Both the position numbers and the translations under genes were made by a program. DNA of 44,004 bases, taken from an uncultured Microcaldota archaeon. GTDB lineage: Archaea; Micrarchaeota; Micrarchaeia; Anstonellales; Bilamarchaeaceae. Where the stretch lies: assembly GCA_903835385.1 (NCBI GenBank), contig CAILMQ010000034.1, positions 1 through 44,004 of the forward strand, written 5' to 3'. The notes beneath the pieces were generated by a model. It was not told the DNA's origin. It ran no database searches and was given only the letters and a program-made list of their open reading frames with translations. Each line of letters starts with the position of its first letter. The stretch's first letter is position 1. This document shows, piece by piece, positions 38,321-39,872 of this stretch.

Positions 38321-38980
38321 TTAAAATACCGCCGCGAGCCCGCTCAAAAACTTCTTCGGGTCCTCGGCCTTCACGAACGCGCTGGCCAGAAGCACGCCTT
38401 CGGAGCCGAGCTCAAGCGCCTTGCGCACGTCCTCGGCATTGCTCACGCCGGCGCCGCAGAGCACGGTTATTTTTGAATTTATCTTTTTTATTTCCTTCAC
38501 GGTTTCCGACACGATTTCCGGTTTCGCGTTGGACACGCTCACTCCGGAGCCTATAAGCTCCGGCGGCTCCACCGCGATGTAGGTCGGTTCGAACGCCGCG
38601 ATTTCAGCGGCTTCTTTCGTGCTGGCCGCGCAGGCAAGGGATTCCAGGCCGTGCGAGTGCAGCGCCTGCACCGTGGCCCTTATTTTATCCGGTCTCAGCT
38701 TCTTCTCCGAGTGGTTCACCAGCGAGCCCTTGACCTTTATTATCTTGAGCGCGTCGACCGGGATTGAGCCGGTGAACGCCCCCGGGCTCTCCGCATCCAC
38801 GTGCTGCGCGAAAATATCGCCGAACCTCTCGGTCGCCTCCTTCAGGTATATGGCGGGGGGGCACACGATTATCCTCACTCCGGTCTCAGCCACCACCTCG
38901 CTCGCGATGTCCGTGAAAAGAAGCGACCTTTCCAGGGTTTGCGTATATGTCTTGAGATTGAGGACTATCAAGGATTTCAC
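38321..38980 (-). CDS. tpiA: Triosephosphate isomerase, archaeal type
   Basis: Interconverts dihydroxyacetone phosphate and glyceraldehyde 3-phosphate. 219 residues, the short archaeal form (about 220-230). Lys10 of the active site is in LIVLNLKTYTQ, the catalytic His in VNHSEKKL, the catalytic Glu in YIAVEPPELIGSG, and the phosphate-binding Gly-rich end in VLCGAGVSNAEDVRKALELG. The start is GTG at 38980: a TATA box (TTTAAAG, 39003-39012) places transcription start at the codon, so the gene is leaderless with a GTG start. Tail-to-tail with the VOC gene (1 nt apart). Confidence 0.95.
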   Translation of the reverse strand: MKSLIVLNLKTYTQTLERSLLFTDIASEVVAETGVRIIVCPPAIYLKEATERFGDIFAQHVDAESPGAFTGSIPVDALKIIKVKGSLVNHSEKKLRPDKIRATVQALHSHGLESLACAASTKEAAEIAAFEPTYIAVEPPELIGSGVSVSNAKPEIVSETVKEIKKINSKITVLCGAGVSNAEDVRKALELGSEGVLLASAFVKAEDPKKFLSGLAAVF

Positions 38981-39079
38981 CCATTCATGAATTGATTGAA
39001 AGTCTTTAAATGGTTGGGCAACCCTCCGCGGAAATGAAGTCGGGTCAGGTTAATAAAGCCGGATTCGCCTGCATTCGCC

Positions 39080-39769
39080 ATGGATTTAAGCGAAACAAAC
39101 AGGAAAAAAATCCTGATTCGTTGGAGCCGCGTCCACACAGCCGAACAAGAGTACATCTCCACCCATGCAATGAAGAACGAATCCCTCAAGGCAAGATTAC
39201 ACGGTTATCTTTGTGGTGACGGAAGCGTAACCCGCAGAAAGGAACGCGCGAATGAAAAAATGCATCATGAAATCCGTTTCTATCCGGACCACGTTTCTAT
39301 GGCGGCTTCTTTCATAGACGCCTTTCATTTGGTTTACGGAAAGAGATTGAGGTTGAAAGAACTGACGAACCACTACCTCGTCAATCTCAACTCCAAGATT
39401 ATCGCAAATGACCTTCTTCGTGACGGTTCCCTTTCAAGCATGGAATGGCGCGTGCCTGTCTGGGTGGTGTGCAATCAAGAAAACTCAAAAGAGTGGCTCA
39501 GGGCGTTTTTCGACTCCGAAGCATATGTCAACGACAAGGAGATTCGCATCCAATCCGTCAACAAAATCGGACTTTGCCAGGTGAAGTCGATGCTCAAGGC
39601 TTTCGGAATCACATGCAGCGAGTACACTTACCAAAGAAAAAACAAAAGATGGAATATTAATTATCATCTGTCAATCCGTGGGCAGGCGAACCGATACAAT
39701 TTCTTAAAAAGGGTTGGCTTCAACCATATAAAAAAGTTAAACAGACTTTTGAATGCCGACGTCGCATAA
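39080..39769 (+). CDS. LAGLIDADG homing endonuclease
   Basis: 229 residues with two LAGLIDADG helices: ARLHGYLCGDGSV (39-51, catalytic Asp47) and EWLRAFFDSEAYV (138-150, acidic Glu147). Spacing of about 100 residues fits a two-motif monomer that makes a 4-nt staggered cut. These enzymes spread introns and inteins. No intein or host exon frames it; instead its last five codons and stop (39755-39769) are the first 15 nt of a tRNA-Ser gene that carries two introns. The GGTTAATAAAG element 27 nt upstream of ATG 39080 is its own promoter. Base use is lower in GC than its neighbours, consistent with mobility. Confidence 0.9.
   Translation: MDLSETNRKKILIRWSRVHTAEQEYISTHAMKNESLKARLHGYLCGDGSVTRRKERANEKMHHEIRFYPDHVSMAASFIDAFHLVYGKRLRLKELTNHYLVNLNSKIIANDLLRDGSLSSMEWRVPVWVVCNQENSKEWLRAFFDSEAYVNDKEIRIQSVNKIGLCQVKSMLKAFGITCSEYTYQRKNKRWNINYHLSIRGQANRYNFLKRVGFNHIKKLNRLLNADVA
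39726..39735 (+). promoter_or_regulatory. TATA box of tRNA-Ser(CGA), inside the endonuclease gene
   Basis: ATATAAAAAA lies about 25 nt before the tRNA 5' end and within the last codons of the homing endonuclease ORF, so the tRNA can be transcribed independently. Confidence 0.5.
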
Positions 39770-39872
39770 TCCGGTAGTGCGTCGGAAACCATTTTGGTTG
39801 ACGAATCTCGAACCGGATTTATCGAGAAAACCGATCCCTCTGGGATTCCAGGTTCAAATCCTGGCGTCGGCG
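39755..39872 (+). tRNA. tRNA-Ser(CGA) with two introns
   Basis: A 118-nt gene that yields an 82-nt type II tRNA. Acceptor GCCGACG/CGTCGGC with G73, D-arm GCAT-AATCCGGTA-GTGC, variable arm CCC-TCT-GGG, T-arm CCAGG-TTCAAAT-CCTGG. Removing intron 1 (20 nt, 39786-39805, between 30 and 31) and intron 2 (16 nt, 39813-39828, between 37 and 38) restores the stem TCGGT/ACCGA and the loop CTCGAAA, anticodon CGA. Both splice sites fit bulge-helix-bulge: intron 1 has helix CGTC/GACG with bulges GG|A and AA|T and an AACC/GGTT hairpin; intron 2 has helix CTCG/CGAG with bulges AA|C and AA|A. Its first 15 nt overlap the homing endonuclease ORF. Confidence 0.9.

Follow-up and report, generated by a model that had tools for sequence, protein, structure and literature searches.

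The LAGLIDADG gene described here is free-standing and quite probably belongs, as the form specific to tRNA-Ser(CGA), to a class of homing-endonuclease-like genes (HEGs) that sit at the edges of tRNA genes, outside introns, and for which homing is predicted. It lies in a 44,004-nucleotide stretch of DNA (the window) from an archaeon of the family Bilamarchaeaceae, on contig C34 (of 68) of a 1.29-Mb MAG with 88.8% completeness and 3.7% contamination. The window genome (G000) was compared with genomes of the same family (G001 to G042) and of the same order (G043 to G083), all of which are MAGs (G010 is 62% complete).

A LAGLIDADG gene and the tRNA-Ser(CGA) gene that it enters

The window ORF (Table 1) matches PF14528 (LAGLIDADG_3; Pfam profile search, E value of 5.5e-14) and the PI-PfuI chain 1dq3 (E value of 9e-5). 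Both catalytic motifs noted in the initial annotation are present (as LCGDGSV and AFFDSEAYV), and all three orthologues (i.e., those of the window, G010, and G015) carry the two motifs with their conserved acidic residue. An AlphaFold model of moderate confidence (pLDDT of 72) has a two-repeat LAGLIDADG fold, and a Foldseek search with this model gave, among the best structural matches, PI-PfuI and I-DmoI (probability of 1.0, TM of about 0.6), together with other intein endonucleases. The window-type endonuclease is under purifying selection, with a pN of 0.22 to 0.29 versus a pS, which is saturated, of 0.87 to 0.91. These features characterize the product as a LAGLIDADG homing-endonuclease-like protein with predicted cleavage and homing activities. 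A profile of the Ser-type endonuclease found no relatives in viral contigs.

Table 1. Features of the window around the LAGLIDADG gene and tRNA-Ser(CGA)
Feature	Position	Strand	Remarks
Triosephosphate isomerase gene (tpi), synteny anchor	38321..38980	-	Usual neighbor of tRNA-Ser(CGA) in the family
Upstream element CCGCGGAAATGAAGTC, variant of CCGCGGAAATGAACCG	39026..39041	+	52 nt before the ATG; in related genomes, shared by TnpB and further LAGLIDADG genes
Free-standing LAGLIDADG (PF14528) homing-endonuclease-like gene	39080..39769	+	ATG start, 229 aa, stop within the tRNA
LAGLIDADG motif 1, HGYLCGDGSV, conserved D47	39200..39229	+	LCGDGSV common to three orthologues
LAGLIDADG motif 2, WLRAFFDSEAYV, conserved D145	39494..39529	+	AFFDSEAYV in the window; AFFDxEAY in three orthologues
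TTAAAAAGG within the ORF (codons Leu-Lys-Arg)	39704..39712	+	Best candidate TATA region of the tRNA, at about -51; identical in three species, also in frame-broken remnants
15-nt overlap, ORF end and tRNA nt 1 to 15	39755..39769	+	GCC GAC GTC GCA TAA, four codons and stop
tRNA-Ser(CGA) gene with two BHB introns	39755..39872	+	Cloverleaf after intron removal
tRNA intron 1, position 30/31, 20 nt, BHB	39786..39805	+	Sequence; inner helix covarying in relatives
tRNA intron 2, position 37/38, 16 nt, BHB	39813..39828	+	Sequence

The ORF lies outside any intron or intein, and the tRNA gene continues on the same strand past the ORF end. Removing the two introns yields a cloverleaf with the anticodon CGA. 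Their assignment as BHB introns at 30/31 and 37/38 stands: intron 1 has a 4-bp central helix (CGUC/GACG), with cuts between GG and A and between AA and U, and intron 2 has another (CUCG/CGAG), with cuts between AA and C and between AA and A. In addition, the inner helix of intron 1 covaries (AACCA/UGGUU in the window versus AAUCC/GGAUU in G010 and G012). Processing at these sites is predicted, and the window genome contains two tRNA splicing endonuclease genes. Neither ARAGORN nor Rfam detects this tRNA, which is no surprise given its two introns, and such missed detection may be why loci of this kind go unnoticed.

The initial annotation had the ORF and the tRNA share 15 nt, which is correct, and counted five codons plus the stop in this segment, which in fact holds the last four codons plus TAA. 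The stop codon consists of the conserved tRNA bases U13-A14-A15. The entire tRNA lies at and beyond the ORF end, and its introns measure 20 and 16 nt; the ORF is not placed within a tRNA intron, as an intron-encoded tRNA endonuclease would be. The 5′ half of the window tRNA-Ser is not recoded relative to those of HEG-free relatives; candidates for protection of the host allele would then be the introns or a lost flank, if it is protected at all. The short introns were dropped as a specific mark of the endonuclease, since 30/31 introns also occur in the HEG-free tRNA-Ser genes of G001, G012, G032, and G033; 37/38 introns and multi-intron tRNAs are common across the family.

Other tRNA introns of the family were recorded during this work. 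Introns of the T-loop (59/60) and of the D-loop occur commonly (L056, L063, L067, L068, L077, L086, L099; L134, L144), and standard finders will miss many of the tRNAs that contain them. Beside tpi in G032 (L103, about 1563, plus strand) and G033 (L104, about 1569, plus strand), one tRNA-Ser gene has two anticodon loops, i.e., TCTTGAA (UGA) and TCTCGAA (CGA). Splicing at 37/38 alone is predicted to give Ser(UGA), and splicing at both 30/31 and 37/38 is predicted to give Ser(CGA). The helices CUUG/CAAG and CGUC/GACG(GAUG) fit at this gene and are conserved in the two species, and no other tRNA-Ser with that D-arm was found in either genome. It is possible that this is an alternatively spliced dual-identity tRNA gene.

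Upstream of the ORF, the window carries one instance of the palindrome TTTCCGCGGAAATGAACCG, which lies about 52 to 54 nt before the starts of LAGLIDADG, TnpB-like, NreA, and XPD/DEAD-type helicase genes (window element in Table 1; L153, L154, L221, L249, L263, L266, L267). It possibly marks a DNA-damage-type regulon common to mobile genes. As an endonuclease-specific signal, CCGCGGAAATGAACCG was rejected because TnpB, NreA, and a helicase gene have it upstream as well.

The locus in related species and the fate of the endonuclease tail

Among the 43 family genomes, full-length close relatives of the window ORF were found in just G010 (60% identity) and G015 (57%). Both orthologues end identically (ADVA and the stop codon) in a two-intron tRNA-Ser(CGA), which they share at its 5′ end from outside, as the initial annotation had described for the window. 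The adjacency of ORF and tRNA thus recurs in sister genomes, and an identical overlap at such protein divergence argues against chance. The tpi gene adjoins tRNA-Ser(CGA) in most family genomes in which that tRNA was located. AMMECR1, tRNA-Ser(CGA), and tpi follow one another without a HEG in G001, G011, G012, and G017, and the HEG stands between AMMECR1 and the tRNA in G010 and G015. In G016 and G017, the HEG-free tRNA-Ser(CGA) is intronless. Relative to tpi, the window locus is turned the other way, an orientation that also occurs without the endonuclease in G004, G006, and G008. The window ORF is accordingly free-standing, i.e., outside introns and absent at the same locus in relatives.

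G011 and G012 belong to the same genus as G010 and G015 and lack the endonuclease gene, with both introns retained in G012. In a tree of tpi and AMMECR1, the sister pair of G011 and G012 groups with G010 (support of 0.97 to 0.99), and G015 falls outside (0.87), suggesting that the gene was probably lost in G011 and G012. The short spacer of these two genomes contains TTAAAAAGGGTTGG, which matches the tail of the HEG over 14 nt. The three Ser HEGs have diverged nearly as much as, or somewhat more than, tpi of the same species (window, G010, and G015), a comparison that gives no sign of recent movement of the Ser type; ancient vertical descent with losses would fit equally.

In a third genus (G018 to G022), only the last ~20 to 60 codons of the HEG persist, directly 5′ of an intronless tRNA-Ser(CGA). 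The remnant of G022 has an in-frame stop (between NH and EK) that breaks the frame, which suggests from this one case that the tails are kept as DNA. The tRNA-Ser body has changed in G018, G021, and G022 (5′ half 60 to 68% identical to those of G019 and G020), and the tail is retained there. The kept tail is probably a tRNA promoter. It contains TTTTTAAA/TTAAAAAGG, and TTAAAAAGG is taken as the best candidate TATA region of tRNA-Ser(CGA). The hexamer TTAAAA is the most enriched upstream of tRNA-Ser genes of the family (12 of 55 versus 1.6 expected), and TTA AAA AGG is the sole stretch of the tail, ahead of the residues that the tRNA encodes, over which synonymous codon choice is identical, although numbers are small. 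The TATA box initially placed at positions 39726 to 39735 is present in the window species only, without conservation in G010 or G015, and was set aside for the upstream site. The observations that bear on a putative promoter embedded in the ORF are a conserved TTAAAAAGG and the retention of frame-broken tails. The earlier alternative of a stable coupling between ORF and tRNA gains support as well, in that the tail keeps its place at the tRNA once the enzyme is dead.

Endonuclease genes at tRNA edges across the order

We surveyed the order by searches with the second LAGLIDADG gene of the window genome and PF14528 and read the loci one by one, which yielded about 63 small LAGLIDADG ORFs with tRNA assignments made by eye; LAGLIDADG ORFs of ~330 to 370 aa, like any located in rRNA genes or inteins, were treated as other classes. 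Of the small ORFs, 21 terminate within the 5′ portion of a complete tRNA on the same strand, i.e., tRNA-Ser (3 cases), tRNA-Ala(CGC) (4), tRNA-Gln(CUG) (5), tRNA-Arg types (6), tRNA-Gly(CCC) (2), and tRNA-Glu (1). By our own rough estimate, about 0.05 such overlaps are expected by chance, given a probability of roughly 0.1% that a random stop falls no further than ~45 nt into a tRNA (45 tRNAs, 1.2 Mb, one strand of two). Many of the stops are formed by U8-A9-G10 (TAG or TAA; Ala, Arg, and Gly cases), and others are formed by U13-A14-A15. At least six further ORFs stop 3 to 45 nt upstream of a tRNA (Phe in four cases, Arg, and Met), four lie antisense at a tRNA 3′ end, a few lie in tRNA introns, and about ten lie in rRNA genes. 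The second tRNA-edge endonuclease gene of the window genome (G000:C15:23478-24089; L009, L145) ends 10 nt before tRNA-Phe(GAA), a position that rules it out as intron-encoded; this tRNA has introns at 30/31, 37/38, and 59/60, and TTATAAAAAC lies in the last codons of the endonuclease.

A maximum-likelihood tree of 34 proteins, built without the last 25 residues to avoid bias from tRNA-encoded residues, is ordered by tRNA target: 14 target groups require 13 changes, which is the minimum, compared with a mean of 25.9 after shuffling (0 of 200 shuffles were as low). HEGs located 5′ in sense and 3′ in antisense of the same tRNA (Phe; Met) cluster in this tree, so that it is the identity of the tRNA gene that the endonucleases track. 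Such sorting is as expected if the enzyme recognizes the tRNA gene. The sister of the Ser clade is an enzyme whose gene lies in the 37/38 intron of a G008 tRNA-Asn (L107). The homing event at a tRNA-Ser gene that the initial annotation had suggested gains support from this sorting and from the HEG-free tRNA-Ser(CGA) at the equivalent spot in many relatives, but the case is not singular, being one of a class.

The insertion route can be read at tRNA-Ala(CGC). In G018 and G023, rpoK (so named from the translation of the flank, as we read it, and not from a database hit) is directly followed by an intact tRNA-Ala(CGC). In G020, G021, and G022, rpoK is followed by the first ~19 to 20 nt of tRNA-Ala, a HEG, and a complete tRNA-Ala. 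Displaced halves are also present at two tRNA-Gly loci of another family (G061 [rc1061] and G044). The succession of a displaced half, a HEG, and a complete tRNA in the Ala and Gly cases indicates that the resident tRNA was split in the D-arm and that a new 5′ part was supplied. For the Ala element, these comparisons show that its insertion broke up the resident tRNA and restored a complete copy, with no splicing involved. A displaced fragment, the mark of mORF-type replacement of a gene end, thus accompanies the Ala (G020, G021, and G022) and Gly (G044 and G061) elements. In the window, G010, and G015, no displaced tRNA-Ser half was found ahead of the HEG; for the Ser element, we infer by extrapolation that it arrived by the route seen for Ala.

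The supplied tRNA-Ala of G021 and G022 differs strongly from the resident type (64 to 69% identity in the 5′ half), a change that could make the allele immune. More generally, the 5′ halves of element-adjoining tRNA-Ser and tRNA-Ala genes are 60 to 69% identical between sister species. Strongly changed bodies with the same anticodon loop as in sisters were observed beside elements or their remains for tRNA-Ala(CGC) (L201 and L160) and tRNA-Ser(CGA) (L127, L128, and L129), and recoding to escape cutting is a possible explanation. Separately, a sequence of ~70 nt that follows a tRNA-Gly in G020 (L017, 1424 to 1494) occurs in about nine copies, partly near other tRNAs.

Proposed mechanism, alternatives, and known systems

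Under the mechanism that we propose, the enzyme would cut a tRNA-Ser(CGA) gene without the element, and repair would copy in the HEG and the adjoining tRNA sequence, so that a complete tRNA would be regenerated and splicing would be unneeded. The HEG ends on a stop codon formed by conserved tRNA bases, and its final ~20 codons would come to serve as the tRNA promoter. Complete deletion of the gene would then remove that promoter, so that the tail would stay once the enzyme had died. DNA cleavage, the cut site, and promoter activity are the parts of this scheme that we infer from sequence comparison.

One alternative, which we regard as unlikely, is that the cut falls in the anticodon region of intronless tRNA-Ser(CGA) genes and that the 30/31 and 37/38 introns are protective and are co-converted with the HEG, in the style of collaborative homing. 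The occurrence of both introns at all three intact HEG loci, the intronless state of all inspected third-genus loci with dead HEGs, and the intron location of the nearest tree relative would agree with such a link, but it is opposed by the 30/31 introns of HEG-free tRNA-Ser genes and the frequency of 37/38 introns in the family, and the Ala and Gly elements split the D-arm, not the anticodon, of tRNAs that are mostly intronless. It appears more doubtful still that the protein is domesticated, i.e., that it no longer homes and is kept for a host role (e.g., regulation or processing of tRNA-Ser) to which the overlap couples it. Long purifying selection at 57 to 64% identity and a fixed position, with the Ser type giving no sign of recent movement, speak for domestication; the gene is nevertheless patchy and repeatedly lost (intact in 3 of 43 family genomes, with remnants elsewhere), many species keep tRNA-Ser in its absence, neither catalytic motif has decayed, insertion and empty sites are seen among relatives, and other members of the endonuclease family are tied to many different tRNAs. 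Coincidence or over-extension of an unrelated ORF into the tRNA gene, where fixed stop codons end any entering frame, is practically refuted by the recurrence of the overlap (three species at 57 to 60% identity, remnants in five more, and 21 cases at six tRNA types versus about 0.05).

Returning to tRNA-specific homing elements, we lean toward the broader view that the order carries an undescribed mobile-element class composed of LAGLIDADG HEGs, with one family per tRNA type, which would insert without introns by supplying a replacement tRNA 5′ part and promoter, would leave the dead enzyme's tail as the promoter, and may have target tRNA bodies recoded so as to evade cutting. Among known systems, the free-standing endonucleases of phage T4 (seg/mob) have promoters of downstream genes embedded in their ORFs, which has been argued to favor their retention (PMC2988022), and SegB, of the T4 tRNA region, cuts within and around tRNA genes (PMC13096335). 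The present genes resemble T4 intronless homing in that the HEG lies outside introns and adjoining DNA is presumably cut, whereas the T4 enzymes are GIY-YIG or HNH proteins borne by a phage and those described here are LAGLIDADG proteins of cellular archaea, with one family per tRNA. No tRNA-body overlap, tRNA-encoded stop, or regeneration of a split tRNA is described in these T4 accounts (PMC2988022, PMC13096335). Mitochondrial mORFs make hybrid genes in Allomyces, Glomus, Rhizopus, and Mortierella (PMC3630166). As in the mORFs (LAGLIDADG in the case of Glomus atp6), insertion brings a replacement end, with the displaced resident end left on the far side (PMC3630166), but mORFs replace protein C termini downstream, whereas the part replaced here is the tRNA 5′ part, on the promoter side, and the displaced fragment was not found for the window Ser element. 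LAGLIDADG genes in archaeal BHB and group I introns (PMC6125680) and in inteins share the fold of the window protein, as reflected in its I-DmoI and PI-PfuI matches and its nearest relative in a tRNA-Asn intron; in contrast to these, the window ORF stands outside a downstream tRNA that is complete and has introns of 16 to 20 nt. Those introns resemble archaeal tRNA BHB introns at 30/31 and 37/38 in position, 4-bp helix, and 3-nt bulges, and nothing about them is unusual in this clade.

The arrangement belongs to a class that recurs and is specific to the tRNA, and it appears to be a new form of intronless homing, the homing reading being based on comparison. Our search of the open-access literature, with its incomplete coverage, found no description of HEGs that overlap archaeal tRNA genes. 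Elements of this splice-free, tRNA-specific kind have precedents in principle in phage T4 and in fungal mitochondria and are apparently undescribed for archaeal tRNA genes. The class offers about ten families of candidate meganucleases with targets readable from the adjoining tRNA. It would represent a third way, neither intron nor intein, for a HEG to occupy an essential RNA gene, i.e., from its edge, with the gene rebuilt and its promoter taken over. The endonuclease tails left as putative tRNA promoters would provide a natural experiment in the conversion of selfish genes into regulatory DNA, and the elements are a possible driver of tRNA sequence change.
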